Part shown: positions 24,526-44,156 of the stretch, in pieces | Layout: every line of letters begins with the position of its first letter | How positions within the stretch are numbered: the first letter of the stretch is position 1 | Source: Sphingomonadaceae bacterium | GTDB lineage: Bacteria > Pseudomonadota > Alphaproteobacteria > Sphingomonadales > Sphingomonadaceae | DNA: 58,607 nt | Assembly (NCBI GenBank): GCA_020630295.1 | Contig: JAHDBR010000012.1 | Coordinates: forward strand, 1 to 58,607 | Direction: 5' to 3' | Translations under genes and position numbers: made by a program | Notes under the pieces: generated by a model | Databases searched by the model: none | What the model saw: only the letters and a program-made list of their open reading frames with translations | What the model was told of the DNA's origin: nothing

Positions 24526-24601
24526 GCCCGGATAGCTCAGTTGGTAGAGCACACGATTGAAAATCGTGGTGTCGGCAGTTCGAATCTGCCTCTGGGCACC
24601 A
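24526..24601 (+). tRNA. tRNA-Phe (GAA), CCA encoded
   Basis: The acceptor arm GCCCGGA (24526-24532) pairs with TCTGGGC (24591-24597). The D arm has AGCTCAGTTGGTAGAGC and the anticodon loop reads TTGAAAA with anticodon GAA. The T arm is GCAGTTCGAATCTGC. CCA is encoded at the end. The fold and length (76 bases) are standard for elongator tRNA-Phe. Confidence 0.98.
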
Positions 24602-25568: not shown

Positions 25569-26324
25569 CTATCCGCGAAAATCCGGTTTTCGTTTTTGCG
25601 TAAATGCGGTCGTTCCCTCAATGAAATCTTCACCTGAGAAAGCGTTCGCGAAGGCAGATTTGGTCGCGGCATTTTCGGAAATCTGTCCGTCCAGCCAGCT
25701 GCGCATCATCTGCTTCATAGAAATGTTGGAACTGCCCGAAACCGCCTCGATCGACGATCTTAACTCGTCCGGCGAATTGCTAATCAATTCGGCAAGACCG
25801 ATCCGTGCCGCCTCGTGGTGATCGATAATGTCACCTGTAAATAGCAGGCGCTTGGCCTGTCCGGGGCCGACCAGATCGGCCAGCAGTTTTATGTCGTGAA
25901 ACGGATAGACAAGGCCCAGTTTTGCAGGCGTAATACCAAATCGTGCGCGCTCTGACGCGACGCGAATGTCGCAGGCTAAGGCGATGGCGCATCCGCCGCC
26001 AATACAGTCTCCGTCCACAAATGCCGCAGTTGGAATTGGAAACCGCGCCAAGCGGTGCTGAGCATCCGAAATAGCGGCCTGATTCTCCGCCTTCCAGCCG
26101 GCATCATCGCGGTGTTCGAGGAGTTCGTGAATATCCGCGCCTGCACTAAACAGGCCGGGCTTGGCCGATTGAATGATCACCAGACGGATGCCGTCCTGCC
26201 CCTCAATTTCATCAAGGGCTTCAGGAATGGCGCGCCACATGTCTAATGTGATCGAATTGCGGCGCTGCGGACGATCAATGTGCAAATAGGCCGTTCGCCC
26301 AGCGTTTTGCCAATGAATGCTCAT
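25569..26324 (-). CDS. enoyl-CoA hydratase/isomerase (crotonase) family protein lacking both usual catalytic Glu
   Basis: A 251-residue crotonase fold protein: FSAGADIHEL (oxyanion hole), FVDGDCIGGGCAIALACDIR and FGITPAKLGLVYPF. In enoyl-CoA hydratases Glu follows GGGC; here it is Ala113. The second Glu (QPE in the rat enzyme) aligns to Pro/Ala around 133-134. Hydration is therefore unlikely, and an isomerase, decarboxylase or other crotonase reaction is more probable. The ATG at 26324 gives an ATGA overlap with the kinase-like gene; a GTG at 26333 is possible. It sits between that gene and the SDR in one operon. Confidence 0.88.
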   Translation of the reverse strand: MSIHWQNAGRTAYLHIDRPQRRNSITLDMWRAIPEALDEIEGQDGIRLVIIQSAKPGLFSAGADIHELLEHRDDAGWKAENQAAISDAQHRLARFPIPTAAFVDGDCIGGGCAIALACDIRVASERARFGITPAKLGLVYPFHDIKLLADLVGPGQAKRLLFTGDIIDHHEAARIGLAELISNSPDELRSSIEAVSGSSNISMKQMMRSWLDGQISENAATKSAFANAFSGEDFIEGTTAFTQKRKPDFRG

Positions 26325-27241
26325 GGCACACACTCATAGACCGCGCTGCAAACATCACTGAGCCGCGCGAAATCTTTGGGTCGGGTCAGCCGGTAAACCG
26401 GCGTAGCAGCCGCAATTTTCGCGCAATAAACCACTTGTTCTCCTAACAATCCCATCAGCTCCAGATATTCTTTGCGGTACATTGTTGCTTCGCAAAGCGC
26501 ACGCACCGCAGTCCCTCCGCGCAAACGCGTGACGGAAATCTCGTCCCCCCATTCAAGAACGAATATCGCTGCCAATGGGCGCGGCACTGTCAAAACTTCC
26601 GCAGCCTCAATCGGCAAATGGAATTTGCGGTCGCGAAAATGGTCACGCTCAAGTTCTACGGTCGGCAATCCAAAATGCTCAAGCGCGGTATCCCATAGCT
26701 TCAAACGCCCTGCCGATGGATAGATAGAGGTGACACCATCTTGCAGTTCGACGCGGCTCAGATCATCCGCGATTACACTGTTACCGCCGCGCAGGAATGC
26801 ACCTGCCATGGTTGATTTTCCCTGGCCCGCATCGCCGCAAAACAAGACGGCCTTACCTGCCACATCAACCGAACTTCCATGCAACATTGGCCAGCCGCGC
26901 TGGTAACCGAGAGCGCCCCATGCGCTGCCCAATGTAAACAGGCGCAATTCCGCCAGCCGCTGATGCCCATCGGGATAAACAAGGATGCGATCTCCAGCCT
27001 CGACAGACCAGCCCCCTACGTCACGAACAGAAAATTGCAGCTTTGCACCATCATAGATGCCATGTTTTTCAGGATGCACGATGTGATTGGGTTCGTCCTG
27101 CAAACCGATGCGCACATCGGCAGTGCCGGCATCATGCTCTGAAAAACAGCGCCATTCGGGAAGTTCAAATTCCGACGCAATAACAACGCCGGAATGGCGA
27201 TAGAAATGCTGCTGCGTTGCTACTGTCGCGTCGGTCGCCAT
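26321..27241 (-). CDS. HPr kinase-like P-loop protein
   Basis: A 306-residue protein whose second half looks like the kinase domain of HprK/P. HGSSVDV (121-127) is followed by GDAGQGKS (P-loop, 136-143) and ADDLS (158-162), which match the HGT, P-loop and VADD motifs of HprK. The N-terminal 110 residues are unlike HprK. Such HprK-like proteins occur as serine kinases of lasso-peptide and other modification systems, and as orphans. No PTS, precursor-peptide or cyclase gene is nearby. It is first in a leftward operon with the crotonase and SDR genes. Confidence 0.75.
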   Translation of the reverse strand: MATDATVATQQHFYRHSGVVIASEFELPEWRCFSEHDAGTADVRIGLQDEPNHIVHPEKHGIYDGAKLQFSVRDVGGWSVEAGDRILVYPDGHQRLAELRLFTLGSAWGALGYQRGWPMLHGSSVDVAGKAVLFCGDAGQGKSTMAGAFLRGGNSVIADDLSRVELQDGVTSIYPSAGRLKLWDTALEHFGLPTVELERDHFRDRKFHLPIEAAEVLTVPRPLAAIFVLEWGDEISVTRLRGGTAVRALCEATMYRKEYLELMGLLGEQVVYCAKIAAATPVYRLTRPKDFARLSDVCSAVYECVP

Positions 27242-27253
27242 ATAATAGCTTCT

Positions 27254-27273
27254 GGCCTAGTGCTGCACAGGCC
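27254..27273. promoter_or_regulatory. dyad in the kinase-like/purC divergent region
   Basis: GGCCTAGTGC and GCACAGGCC are near-perfect inverted halves around one T. It lies 12 bases beyond the start codon of the leftward kinase-like gene and 132 bases before purC, where an operator would be expected. There is no independent support. Confidence 0.3.
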
Positions 27274-27337
27274 GCAACCCGCTGGACAGACAGTGCGGCG
27301 CAGATTGCACTTTGCGCGGTTAGTCAGTAAAGGATTC

Positions 27338-27394
27338 GCACGCCCCGGCGATGCCGAAGTGCTAGACTTCGTCAGCCGGGGCGGTGCTATTTTT
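27338..27394 (+). promoter_or_regulatory. terminator-like hairpin in the purC leader
   Basis: The outer stem CGCCCCGGC (27341-27349) pairs with GCCGGGGCG (27375-27383) and extends with GCA/TGC across one bulged G. The inner stem CGAAGT (27355-27360) pairs with ACTTCG (27366-27371) around a GCTAG loop. TTTTT follows at 27390-27394, then the Shine-Dalgarno AAGGA at 27396-27400 and the purC ATG at 27406. No other rightward gene lies just upstream, so a terminator here could only act on the purC message. It could be an attenuator, a regulatory RNA switch or a stability element. Confidence 0.75.
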
Positions 27395-27405
27395 AAGGAA
27401 CGCGC

Positions 27406-28206
27406 ATGACCCGTCGCCGTCAGATTTACGAAGGTAAAGCCAAGATTCTCTATGAGGGTCCTGAACCGGGCACAATCATCCAGTATTTCAAGGATGACGC
27501 GACCGCGTTTAACGCCCAGAAAAAGGGTACGATCAACGGCAAGGGTGTGATCAATAATCGCATCAGCGAATATGTGTTTAGCCGTCTCAGCCATATCGGT
27601 ATTCCGACGCATTTTATCCGCCGCCTGAACATGCGCGAACAGCTGGTCCGCCAGGTGGAAATCGTTCCGATCGAAGTGATCGTACGAAATGTCGCAGCAG
27701 GCTCAATCTGCAAGCGCCTGGGGCTGGAAGAGGGCGAGCCTTTGCCGCACACTTTGCTCGAATATTGTTACAAGGATGATGCCTTGGGCGATCCATTGAT
27801 CGCAGAAGAGCACATCGCTTGTTTTAATTGGGCAAGTCAGGAAGAAATGCAGGATATTTCCAGCATGGCGATCCGCATCAATGATTTTCTCTGCGGGATG
27901 TTCGCCGCAATTGATATTCGTCTGATCGACTTCAAGCTGGAATTTGGCCGCCTGTTTGATGGCGATTTCAGCCGGATTGTACTTGCTGATGAAATCAGCC
28001 CGGACGGATGCCGCCTGTGGGATATGAACACCAACGAGAAGCTGGATAAGGACCGCTTCCGTCGCGATCTTGGCGGAGAGGAAGAGGCATATCAAGAAGT
28101 CGCCAAACGTCTCGGTATCCTGCAAAACGATGACAATGGCCCGGGCGAGGTCTTTGATCTGAACGCCCATCGCGGCAAAATGCGCGGCAGCAAGCCTAAG
28201 AAGTGA
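27406..28206 (+). CDS. purC: phosphoribosylaminoimidazole-succinocarboxamide synthase
   Basis: PurC joins aspartate to CAIR in purine synthesis, using ATP. The 266-residue protein has [16 protein letters not shown] at the N-terminus (phosphate loop), [20 protein letters not shown], and [33 protein letters not shown] and [14 protein letters not shown] follow, with the ATP/Mg and Asp-binding residues. AAGGA precedes the ATG by 5 bases. The leader holds a terminator-like hairpin. Its stop overlaps the M16 peptidase gene as GTGA, and purS and purQ follow beyond it. Confidence 0.97.
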
Positions 28207-31100
28207 TTATAACTCGCCTAGTTGCAAAGTGTTTTCGGGGCGCCATCTGCGCCGGGTTTTTCATTGCCGGAATGGCGCTTCCAATCGCTGGGCATAATAG
28301 TGCCTTAGCGCAAGATGGCGACGAGACAGCTGAACAGGTCGATCCGGTCTGGGCATTTGAAACCAGCGATATTCCGGTCGATCCCAAATATCATTTCGGA
28401 GTGCTCGATAATGGTATGCGCTATGTAATCCGGTCTAATGACCGGCCCGAAGGCACGGCTCTGGTCCGCCTTCACATCAGCTCCGGATCTTTGGCCGAGC
28501 AGGAAAACGAACGCGGCCTAGCGCATTTTCTGGAGCATATGGCGTTCAACGGTTCGCGCCGCGTCCCGGAAGGTGAAATGATCAAATTGCTGGAGCGCGA
28601 AGGGCTTGCTTTTGGCGCCGATACCAATGCCAGTACCGGCTTTGAGAGCACTTCTTACCGCCTCGATCTGCCCAGAAACGATCCCGCATTGTTAGACACA
28701 GCGCTCATGCTCATGCGTGAGACTGCCAGCGAGCTTTTGCTGGACCCGGAAGCCATCGACCGGGAACGCGGCATCATTCTGTCAGAGCGACGCGACAGGC
28801 GCAATTTTAGCCAGCGCGAGTTGGAGGACAGGTTTGCGTTTTTGACCCCCGGGGCTCGCTATACACAGCGGCTCCCCATCGGCATCCGCGAAGTTTTGGA
28901 AACTGCGACAGCAGACGATTTTCGCGCCTTCTACGAACGTGAATATGTGCCTGTAAATGCCGTCGTTCTGGTTGTGGGGGATTTTGATGTCGATACCGTC
29001 GAAGGTGCGATCAAGGCACATTTCGACAGCTGGCAGAAAGCCCCTGCCCCGCAAAAACCGGTTGTCGGGCCGGTTGATCTATCCCGCTCTGGCGAAACGC
29101 ATATTTACCTTGATCCTGCTCTGTCGGAACGGCTTCGCATTTCGCGGCACACGGGCCCTCGGAATTCTGATGACAGCGTGGCGAAACGTCAGCAAAATCT
29201 ACTGACTTCTATTGGATACGGGATCATCAACCGCCGGCTTCAGAGACTGGCGTTAGGTGAAAACGCTCCGTATCGTTCCGCAGGTTTCGGTACAGGCCGC
29301 ATCTTTGATATTGGCCGGACTACCAATATTGTTATCGATACCGCTGACGGGTTGTGGGAACCAGGAATGGATGCCGCCGTAACCACGCTGCGCACTGCCC
29401 TCGCCTTCGGCTTTTCGGAAAGCGAGGTGGCAGAACAGATTGCCAATATCCGTACATCACAGAACAATGCCGTTTCTGCGGCTGACACACGCGGCAACGC
29501 GTCGCTCATTAATGCCGCGACGAGCCTGATCACTCAGGAAATAGTCCCATCCACCGCGCAGTCTTCGCTCGAACGGTTTGAAAGCTTCGCCCCGTATGTG
29601 ACACCGGCGGCGGTATTGGCCGCCGTGCGGGACGACGCCGCGCGATTGATCAATCCGCTCATCAGATTTCAAGGACGTACTGCACCTAAGGGCGGCAAAT
29701 CTGCGTTGCGCAAAAAGTGGAACGAGTTGATTGCGCGGAAATTGACCAAGCCCGCAGAGAGCGCAGCAATAGAATTTGGATATACGGATTTCGGGCCGCC
29801 CGGCTCGGTCGTTAGCGACATGACCGATGCGCGTTTGAACATCCGTCAAATACGCTTCTCAAACGGCGTTATGCTCAATCTCAAGCAGACTGATCTGTCC
29901 AAAGACCGGGTCAGCTACCGGATGTCTGTTGACGGTGGCAGTCTGCTAAATACGCGGGACAATCCGCTCGCCACATCGATGGTGTCCGTGATCCCTGCCG
30001 GAGGTTTGGGCAAACATTCGCGTGATGAATTGCAGACAGCGCTGGCGGGCCGCAATGCGGATATGTCCATCTCCAGCGGTGGCGACGTGTTTGTCAGCAG
30101 CGGAACTACTACTAATCGCGACATCGAATTGCAGTTGCAATTGCTGGCTGCAACCCTGACCGATCCGGGCTACCGCAAGGAAGGTGAAACGCGATACCGC
30201 CGCAGTGTCACCAACTATTACAAGACGCTCGACTCCACGCCGGGTCGCGCGCTGTCGGCTGCGCTTGGCGGAATCGTATCGGATCAAGATCCGCGGTTCA
30301 CACTACAATCCGAAAAAGACACCAAAGCGCGCAGCTATGCTTTGTTGGATAAGGATATCGGTGACCGTCTACGTTCGGGGGCCATAGAGATAGGCATCGT
30401 TGGTGATTTCGATGCGGATGAGATTATCAAACGTGTGGCTTCCACACTTGGTGCGTTGCCTGCGCGGGAAAATGAATTCCTGCCCAGAACAAGCGAGCGA
30501 CAGCGCGGCTTTACCCGGGACCGCTCCCTGCGCACGCTCAACCACAAAGGTGAAGATGACCAAGCGCTCATCTACATGGTCTGGCCGACACGGGACGACA
30601 GCGATTTACGCGCGGCGCAAGAGCTGGAACTGCTTGAACGCATTGCCCGCTTGGCTTTGCAAGCAGAATTGCGCGAAAAGTTGGGCAAGACCTACTCCCC
30701 GTCTGCCAGCAGTTCTCTATCTTCGATTTATACCGGTTACGGAACCTTCTCGCTTACTGCGTCGATCGACGTTGCTGAAATTGATGCAACCCGCTCCGCG
30801 CTTTCGGATGCCATTGCGAAACTACGCGATGAACCTGTTGGTCCGGATACGCTAGAAAGAGCGCGCAAACCGCTGCTGGAGGCATATGACAACGCCCTGA
30901 AAAGCAATGGCAGCTGGCTGAGGCTCGTCGACCGGGCGCAGAGCCGGTCCGATGATATTGACCGGTTCTTGGCTGCGAAAGATGTTATAGCGAGCATAAC
31001 CGCACTGGACATCCAGCGCACGGCGCAAAAATATCTGCAGGATGACGATCTTCTCGAAGTACGGGTGGTGCCGGAAACCACGCAGGATGTTAGCGGATAA
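28203..31100 (+). CDS. M16 family zinc metalloprotease, exported
   Basis: A 965-residue two-domain M16 (insulinase/PqqL-like) protease. A signal peptide spans about residues 1-36 (hydrophobic [17 protein letters not shown], then SALAQ). The zinc motif HFLEH is at 108-112 with the third ligand Glu188, exactly 76 residues after His112, so the site is intact. The second half repeats the fold without the motif. It likely degrades peptides in the periplasm. It starts with GTG inside the purC stop (GTGA), so it is translated with a purine gene, an odd pairing. A short perfect inverted repeat (31124-31138) lies downstream. Confidence 0.9.
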
Positions 31101-31186: not shown

Positions 31187-31426
31187 ATGAAAGTTCACAT
31201 TCACGTATCGCTCAAGCCCGGCGTTCTCGACCCGCAAGGCCGTGCAATCCATCATGAGCTCGAAGCTCTTGGCTTTGATGGTGTGAATGATGTTCGCGCC
31301 GGCAAGCTAATCGAGCTGGACGTTGCCGATAACACTTCCGATGATGATCTGGATCAGATGTGCCGAAAATTGCTCGCTAATATGGTCATCGAAAACTACC
31401 GGATCGAGAAACTGGAAACAGCATAA
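31187..31426 (+). CDS. purS: phosphoribosylformylglycinamidine synthase subunit PurS
   Basis: A 79-residue PurS, the small bridging subunit of the three-part FGAM synthase (PurS-PurQ-PurL). [35 protein letters not shown] and ENYRIEKLE are the family pattern. I chose the ATG at 31187; the longer frame to 31115 has no support. It is followed directly by purQ with a one-base overlap (TAATG). purL is not in the window. Confidence 0.96.
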
Positions 31427-32103
31427 TGGCGTTCCGTTCGGCAGTCATCACCTTCCCCGGTTCCAACTGCGACCGCGACATGGCCGTAGCGCTGGAAAAA
31501 GTCTCCGGCAGCGCACCGCAACGCGTTTGGCACGGCGATGCTTCATTGCCTGACGGGTTGGATTTCATCGCCTTGCCCGGTGGATTCTCCTACGGAGATT
31601 ATCTTCGCTCTGGTGCAATGGCCGCGCGCAGTCCGATCATGAAGTCAGTAATAGCCGCCGCAGAAAAAGGCGTCCCTGTACTGGGCGTCTGCAACGGCTT
31701 TCAGGTTCTCACCGAAAGCGGGCTTCTGCCAGGCGCATTGATGCGCAATGCCAGCCAGAACTTCATTTGCCGCGACGTGCCGCTGAAAGTCGAAAATACG
31801 CAGTCCCTATTCACCGCAGGCTATGATGCCGATGAAGTGATCACCATCCCGGTGGCCCATCATGACGGGAACTTTTTCGCGGATGATGCCACGCTGGACC
31901 GGATTGAAGGCGAAGGCCGTGTCGCGTTTCGCTATCTGGAAAGCTGCAATGGATCGCAGCGCGACATTGCGGGAATTCTTAATTCAGCCGGCAATGTCTT
32001 GGGTATGATGCCTCATCCCGAGCGCGCGATTGAGGAAGAGCACGGCGGATCCGATGGCCGCGCATTGTTTGAAAACGCGATCAACGGACTTGTGCGGGCT
32101 TAA
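31426..32103 (+). CDS. purQ: phosphoribosylformylglycinamidine synthase subunit PurQ
   Basis: A 225-residue class I glutamine amidotransferase that supplies ammonia to Pur[11 protein letters not shown] at the N-terminus, [13 protein letters not shown] and [17 protein letters not shown] (nucleophile Cys) are present. VAHHDGNFF and GMMPHPERA with the catalytic His and Glu complete the triad. It shares one base with purS. The end runs 26 bases before the end of the leftward GGDEF/EAL gene. No terminator is seen in that gap. Confidence 0.96.
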
Positions 32104-43490: not shown

Positions 43491-43510
43491 TTCCTCAGTC
43501 ATACACCGCT

Positions 43511-43549
43511 AAAGCGCCTCGCAGGAAACTGCGGGGCGTTTTGTTTTTT
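43511..43549 (+). terminator. intrinsic terminator of the entericidin gene
   Basis: CGCCTCGCAG (43515-43524) pairs with CTGCGGGGCG (43529-43538), with one G-U, around a GAAA tetraloop. TTTTGTTTTTT follows. It lies 24 bases after the stop. Confidence 0.92.
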
Positions 43550-44156
43550 AAGCAGACGGGCCCTGCAATTGGCGGTACACAAGGATCAAATTATTCGCCG
43601 GCATCTCGTATCGCGCGGACCGGGACAGCCCTTCCTCCTCAGCAAACGCGTCAACATCGTCAACATGGCGAATTCCCCAACGCGGGTTTCGGCTGCGCAG
43701 GCTGAGATCAAAATCGAGATTTGACGGACTTGGTTCAACTTCCCTTTCGAAATAGGGGCCGTAGAGGATCAATGGCGCGCCTTTGGGTAAAAGACGCGCT
43801 GCCTCTGCGATCAGTCCGGTCGCCGCAGACCATGGACTTATATGGATCATGTTTACGCACAAAATCGCGTCAACATTCTCCACCGTCCAAGGCGTTTGCG
43901 CAGCATTTAATTGAATTGAGGGAGCTATATTTGGAAGGTCGCTATCTTCCAGATAGGCGTCAATCGAAGCGAGCGCCTCAACATCAAGGTCACTGGGCTG
44001 CCAGTGCAGGTTCGGGAAGCGGCGCGCAAAGAATAATGCGTGCTCGCCTGATCCGCTCGCTATCTCCAGCACTGTCCCTTGTTTAGGCAATTCGTGTGCG
44101 AGAATGTCGGCAATAGGCTCACTATTACGCGTTGTCGCAGGTGCATGGCGTTTCAC
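43548..44156 (-). CDS. DUF938 family SAM-dependent methyltransferase-like protein
   Basis: A 202-residue DUF938 protein. APATTRNSEPIADILAHEL at the N-terminus and VLEIASGSGEHALFFARRFPNLHWQPSDLD carry the SAM loop. VNMIHISPWSAATGLIAEAARLL and ILYGPYFE are further family signs, and DLSLRSRNPRWGIRHVDD is the classical end. The molecule methylated is unknown. It is last in a leftward set with the ABA4-like and NAD(P)-binding genes. It ends within the run of the entericidin terminator on the other strand. Confidence 0.88.
   Translation of the reverse strand: MKRHAPATTRNSEPIADILAHELPKQGTVLEIASGSGEHALFFARRFPNLHWQPSDLDVEALASIDAYLEDSDLPNIAPSIQLNAAQTPWTVENVDAILCVNMIHISPWSAATGLIAEAARLLPKGAPLILYGPYFEREVEPSPSNLDFDLSLRSRNPRWGIRHVDDVDAFAEEEGLSRSARYEMPANNLILVYRQLQGPSA

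Follow-up and report, generated by a model that had tools for sequence, protein, structure and literature searches.

A conserved hairpin followed by a displaced U run in the purC leader of Sphingomonadaceae

PRPP, ppGpp and purine riboswitches stand upstream of purine genes, and the his and trp leaders are known as hairpin-stabilised pause sites, the common pause consensus including a G after the pause. According to PMC12288461, NusA-stimulated pauses have their hairpin 10–13 nt before the RNA end, and the NusG pause has TTNTTT at -11 to -6 with the hairpin 11–12 nt upstream of the RNA end.

The leader considered here precedes purC in a window of 58,607 nucleotides, that is, the whole stretch of DNA analysed. 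purC was located in 188 of 197 genomes, comprising 118 of the 119 from the window's family (one gave no match) and 70 from other families of the order. Leaders were read from all 118 family genomes, from seven of the 70 others and from 80 further loci (Pontixanthobacter, Erythrobacter, Qipengyuania, Novosphingobium, Croceicoccus and others) that partly overlap the genome set. For the anatomy of the element, 190 loci gave 182 distinct leaders, 155 of which matched a loose pattern, tRNA stems among them. Dropping leaders with tRNA marks or with arms more than 50 nt apart left 134, two with odd arms (L088 and L166) were set aside to leave 132, and removal of near-duplicates at 85% identity gave 111 non-redundant leaders. 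A seed alignment was built from 34 of 47 diverse leaders, 13 being excluded for long or odd loops or arms.

The purC leader and its predicted promoter

The features of the locus are as follows.

26321-27241, minus strand: divergent gene with a below-cutoff match to the HPr kinase C-terminal domain (domain search); gene start at 27241
27305-27310, plus strand: predicted -35 element TTGCAC; TTGC is the best -35 in 99 of 111 leaders
27328-27333, plus strand: predicted -10 element TAAAGG, 17 nt after TTGCAC; relatives have TATAGG- or TAAAGG-like hexamers
27340, plus strand: predicted transcription start (A), 7 nt after the -10 and one base before the stem
27341-27349, plus strand: 5' arm of the outer stem, CGCCCCGGC, part of a stem common to 83 of 118 family leaders
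27355-27371, plus strand: inner stem-loop CGAAGT-GCTAG-ACTTCG; an inner stem is favoured in relatives
27375-27383, plus strand: 3' arm of the outer stem, GCCGGGGCG, conserved in relatives
27388-27394, plus strand: T-rich run TATTTTT (TTTTT at 27390-27394)
27395-27399, plus strand: Shine-Dalgarno sequence AAGGA
27406-28206, plus strand: purC, SAICAR synthetase (PF01259, E 7.7e-85), ATG at 27406
31187-31426: purS, downstream of an M16 peptidase gene
31426-32103: purQ, downstream of purS

The hairpin had been picked out beforehand in a sequence-only reading of the window, as a terminator-like structure with a 9-base perfect outer stem and a 6-base inner stem in front of the ribosome site, and these stems are present exactly as described. 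All nine outer pairs are formed (27341-27349 with 27375-27383) in a G+C stem, and six inner pairs join CGAAGT (27355-27360) to ACTTCG (27366-27371). The fold of 27320-27405 reaches -36 kcal/mol (z -3.0), a stability equalled by none of 200 shuffles, so that the leader does hold the stable G+C-rich hairpin that belongs to a canonical intrinsic terminator. The terminator-like shape is not significant by itself, a general terminator scan of 26000-29000 having returned five sites against 3.8 ± 2.1 expected, and the significance of the purC hairpin therefore comes from its conservation. An extended stem, also part of the earlier reading, can be drawn in the window by pairing GCA (27338-27340) with TGC (27385-27387) around one bulged G, but with A27340 as the predicted start G27338 and C27339 probably lie outside the transcript, and no pairing beyond the nine pairs is consistent across the 111 leaders.

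The promoter prediction is shared by the relatives. The spacer between -35 and -10 measures 17 nt in 97 of 111 leaders, the promoter score stands at or above the 95th percentile of shuffled upstream sequences in 110, and the gap from the -10 to the stem is 8–10 nt in 75. On the usual assumption that the start follows the -10 by 6 nt, the transcripts of 84 of the 111 leaders are predicted to begin 1–4 nt ahead of the stem. A scan using a different -10 rule placed a promoter site at 27217-27246, likewise upstream of the hairpin.

A mapped purC start with an 81-nt leader is given for Zymomonas mobilis in Table 3 of PMC7566282. One of the surveyed genomes (G031) is Z. mobilis, since 4000 bases of a plasmid contig match NC_017180.1 with 100% identity. 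Read by eye, its leader (L185) has TATAAA preceded by TTGCGC at 16 nt, and position -81 stands 7 nt beyond the TATAAA; the scripted promoter register lies two bases further downstream than the by-eye one. The prediction of A27340 relies on this same distance between -10 and start, taken from a strain that differs from the mapped one and from a leader without the conserved stem. The last 81 nt before the start codon of L185 hold another small hairpin (CAGGATCTGTCCTG) followed by TTCCTTTTT.

A transcription start downstream of the hairpin had been named as grounds for abandoning the proposal; the predicted start lies upstream instead. As had been claimed, no rightward gene stands just upstream, the neighbour being the leftward gene that starts at 27241, and a role for the hairpin as the terminator of an upstream gene was rejected on this orientation and on the promoter in between. 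Lying between the predicted promoter and the purC start, the hairpin should act on purC, in agreement with the earlier reading. Between purC and purS lies the M16 peptidase gene (28203-31100), which overlaps the stop codon of purC; with this gene, purS and purQ behind purC, the element may govern more than purC.

Conservation and anatomy of the stem

A census was taken with the pattern GCCYCGG, 6–50 nt, CCGGGGC, allowing at most one mismatch and a distance of at most 200 nt from the start codon. The stem was found in 83 of the 118 family purC leaders, five others having a tRNA-Phe just upstream instead and 30 having neither; the corresponding figures for the 80 loci were 58, 20 and 2. It is present in 67 of 95 family genera, three of which are mixed, with members both with and without it. 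The pattern occurred in 92 of 2360 shuffled leaders and in one of 117 adjacent upstream stretches of 200 nt. The opposite strand of the same family leaders matched in 84 of 118 cases, as the pattern is palindromic, and the strand call thus rests on the promoter and the U run. The pairing is therefore conserved in relatives, which removes its absence as a ground for refutation, while the 35 family leaders lacking the pattern (the five with a tRNA-Phe directly upstream included) indicate that the element is dispensable.

The stem was absent from all seven leaders read from the order's other families, where the residual structure averaged z -0.3. Among the 30 family leaders with neither stem nor tRNA the mean was z -0.9 (with the promoter guessed by score); variant hairpins built from other stem letters were seen in L174, L183, L186, L248, L250, L254 and L258, and others had none. 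In many Erythrobacter-type genomes a tRNA with a GAA anticodon, read by eye as tRNA-Phe, lies directly before purC and the hairpin pattern was not found. This arrangement was noted in L041, L042, L046, L048-L053, L059, L064 and others, the tRNA ending about 25–75 nt before purC, and purC may be co-transcribed with the tRNA in those genomes.

Over the 111 leaders the stem reads C-GCCYCGG-C / G-CCGGGGC-G, with seven core pairs nearly fixed in sequence and the two end pairs formed in about 70–74%. Bases just inside the stem on the loop side are not conserved, so no ligand-binding core is apparent. Shuffling the loop only gave a mean z of -2.06 in 110 leaders, 99% of them below zero, from which it appears that an inner stem is kept though its sequence is free; the best-supported offset for this inner stem had a pairing z of +4.6, as one of 100 offsets tried. 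A covariation check had been proposed with the earlier reading. In the 34 aligned leaders the stem itself proved conserved, but covariation of the outer stem was weak, since the outer stem hardly varies: three of nine pairs changed on both sides, a count reached by 42 of 500 shuffles, and the covariation score was equalled by 84 of 500.

For the pattern GCCYCGG N5-35 CCGGGGC the window's genome has a single match, at purC (the reversed pattern, counted as a control, gave two forward and one reverse matches), and forward-strand counts in six other genomes range from 5 to 57. The 57 forward matches belong to G034 (genus g28), where many are near-identical 20-base palindromes of the GCCCCGGCCTTCGCCGGGGC type, which suggests a dispersed repeat in that genome. 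An interspersed repeat was rejected for the window's genome on the single occurrence and on a BLAST search with just seven other matches, of 14–17 nt. A covariance model built with stricter filters (R1) matched 81 of 119 family genomes at E <=0.003, and in 79 of the 119 the match lay at purC by hand comparison, the exceptions being G043 and G093. Nineteen order-level genomes also had R1 matches; in the 11 of these with a listed place for purC, none lay at purC. A weak second match to the purC-leader model was seen in the window at 43510-43555 on the plus strand (E 0.05).

No Rfam family matched the hairpin at the gathering score, the sole match in the whole window being the tRNA at 24526-24598, and a relaxed search at the hairpin returned just two sub-threshold microRNA matches. 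None matched at 20 related loci either. The remark of the sequence-only reading that it knew of no purC leader motif of this shape in alphaproteobacteria agrees with the covariance searches of the window and these loci. The loop varies in length across purC leaders. An operator for a transcription factor appears unlikely, as the arms stand 9–48 nt apart.

Spacing of the U run and candidate functions

Release at intrinsic terminators takes place at 7–9 nt, which is shorter than the distance from the stem to the last U in the purC leaders, where the median from the last pair to this U is 10 nt (interquartile range 9–10). Counting from the final C of CCGGGGC, the 111 leaders show an excess of T between +7 and +11, and 97% have a T at +9. 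In the 104 leaders with a run, its centre stands 8.6 ± 2.0 nt from the stem, compared with 27.7 ± 10.0 nt to the ATG. TTTT occurs within 25 nt in 77 of 111 leaders against 15.6 expected from shuffled tails, and the first TTT after the extended stem follows at 3–7 nt in 96, at 0–2 nt in eight and not at all in seven. With the d'Aubenton-Carafa formula, the terminator score was above zero in four of 111 leaders, or five with a G+C-only stem. By these rules, with the T run displaced and few scores positive, the hairpin is not a canonical terminator, and the canonical geometry implied by the earlier description is not supported.

Many of the next-best model matches in these genomes resemble ordinary terminators. 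The surroundings of 26 were read, 19 were taken and 18 scored, in a set chosen by form from which L205, L207, L231, L234, L239, L240 and L243 were left out as non-plain terminators or chance-like. In these 18 form-chosen matches the longest T run followed the G+C stem at 0–2 nt in 12 (directly in 11) and at 3–6 nt in six, and the score was above zero in 14 and below in four. The spacing thus sets purC leaders apart from those terminators of these genomes that have a comparable stem, as far as a set chosen by form can serve for comparison. As a control, 3044 other hairpins in the loci had T runs at all offsets, 20 at offset 0 and 6–15 elsewhere, a slight excess that is expected if most are chance hairpins.

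A predicted 5'-terminal element that would act in cis on purC, in Sphingomonadaceae in the wide sense, is a well-supported reading of the conserved layout, in which a shared promoter is followed by a 9-bp stem of conserved sequence, enclosing an inner stem whose sequence is free, and by a U run ending about 10 nt after the last paired base. How it would act is a more tentative matter. The reading we favour, as plausible, is a promoter-proximal hairpin pause or leaky attenuator, an action on early elongation that is inferred from the spacing. As the polymerase leaves the promoter, the hairpin would form inside its exit channel at the moment when the U run has just been synthesised; RNA polymerase would pause and a fraction might terminate, so that the element would set the transcription entering purC and perhaps the genes behind it. 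NusA, NusG, a protein or nucleotide levels are candidate modulators, if there are any. The median of 10 nt to the last U fits the 10–13 nt of NusA-stimulated pauses if the polymerase pauses where the run ends or immediately beyond it. Against the pause reading, a pause signal need not keep its stem sequence so strictly, the outer-stem covariation is weak, the pattern is palindromic and missing from 35 of 118 leaders, and the U run does not match the NusG motif: TTNTTT is held within 16 nt by 25 of 111 leaders, and the T run is too far from the stem. A G after the pause was likewise not evident in the base table of the 111 leaders.

We regard a broader version as unlikely, namely a new class of leader element in which a hairpin at the transcript start, with its U run displaced, stalls RNA polymerase as soon as it has escaped the promoter. 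Such an element would need no aptamer, leader peptide or antiterminator, and nucleotide levels or elongation factors would let it meter purine synthesis in most genera of the family. As to growth conditions, Table 3 of PMC7566282 lists the purC promoter of Z. mobilis, a species without the conserved stem, as constant between minimal and rich medium.

The chief rival to a pause or leaky attenuator, with which it could coexist, is a 5' stabiliser, and we judge it possible though somewhat unlikely. A hairpin a few nucleotides from the 5' end would block RppH and RNase E and so prolong the life of purC mRNA; both enzymes depend on single-stranded 5' ends according to PMC3997798, and the stem is predicted within that short distance of the start in most leaders. 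The absence of the pattern where tRNA-Phe precedes purC also suits this explanation, as the 5' end of the mRNA there could come from tRNA processing. Stabilisation nevertheless gives no reason for the U run to keep its distance from the stem or for the stem sequence to be conserved, and most predicted starts leave 2–4 unpaired bases, while at least two suffice for B. subtilis RppH (PMC3997798).

A further candidate is recognition of the conserved stem, perhaps with the U run, by an RNA-binding protein that controls purC translation or termination: the outer stem is conserved beyond pairing, and a G is retained in the 3' arm opposite a 5'-arm U in four of the 34 aligned leaders. Such a protein site is nonetheless decidedly unlikely in our view, as there is no candidate protein, the loop is unconserved and the window's genome has a single site, so that a factor dedicated to it would have one target gene there.

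A purine-responsive attenuator was the function suggested in the sequence-only reading. Its proposal of an attenuator or leader element acting on purC holds as regards position, conservation and the lack of an Rfam match, but its canonical form, with an intrinsic terminator, must be considered very unlikely. Although a G+C hairpin with a U run stands in a purine-gene leader behind a conserved promoter, the T run is displaced and few leaders score as terminators, the hairpin begins so near the predicted start that no room is left for an upstream antiterminator, and the stem pattern occurs at purC alone in the window's genome. That the element is an independent small RNA, roughly 55 nt long, whose end before purC is accidental is scarcely credible: it would have its own promoter, hairpin and U run, but the loop is variable with no conserved seed. 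In four genomes where tRNA-Phe precedes purC, the strongest model match at another place is weak three times (E 0.04 in G054, 0.2 in G070 and 0.78 in G060) and once has the form of an ordinary terminator (G047, 1.1e-4).

Comparison with described systems

Open-licence PubMed Central papers yielded no account of a leader element at purC in this group, and the hairpin may be a hitherto undescribed control element. If the pause or attenuation reading is true, a one-hairpin device at the transcript start in 67 of 95 sampled genera would regulate the entry to purine synthesis with no need for an RNA that binds a ligand, and a hairpin with a U run would by itself be no proof of a terminator. The 111 non-redundant natural variants make the element directly testable.

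The position in a purine-gene leader is shared with the PRPP, ppGpp and purine riboswitches, from which the purC leader differs in having no Rfam match and no conserved loop bases beside the stem. A hairpin at the predicted mRNA 5' end recalls the ompA-type stabilisers, whereas the purC hairpin has both a conserved sequence and a conserved U run. The likeness to hairpin-stabilised, NusA-stimulated pauses is one of sequence spacing, with a hairpin about 10–12 nt before the end of a U-rich stretch. As in intrinsic terminators and attenuators, a 5' leader here carries a G+C hairpin and, behind it, a U run; unlike theirs, this U run mostly begins 3–7 nt after the stem, and the hairpin is predicted at the 5' end of the transcript and is conserved in sequence family-wide.
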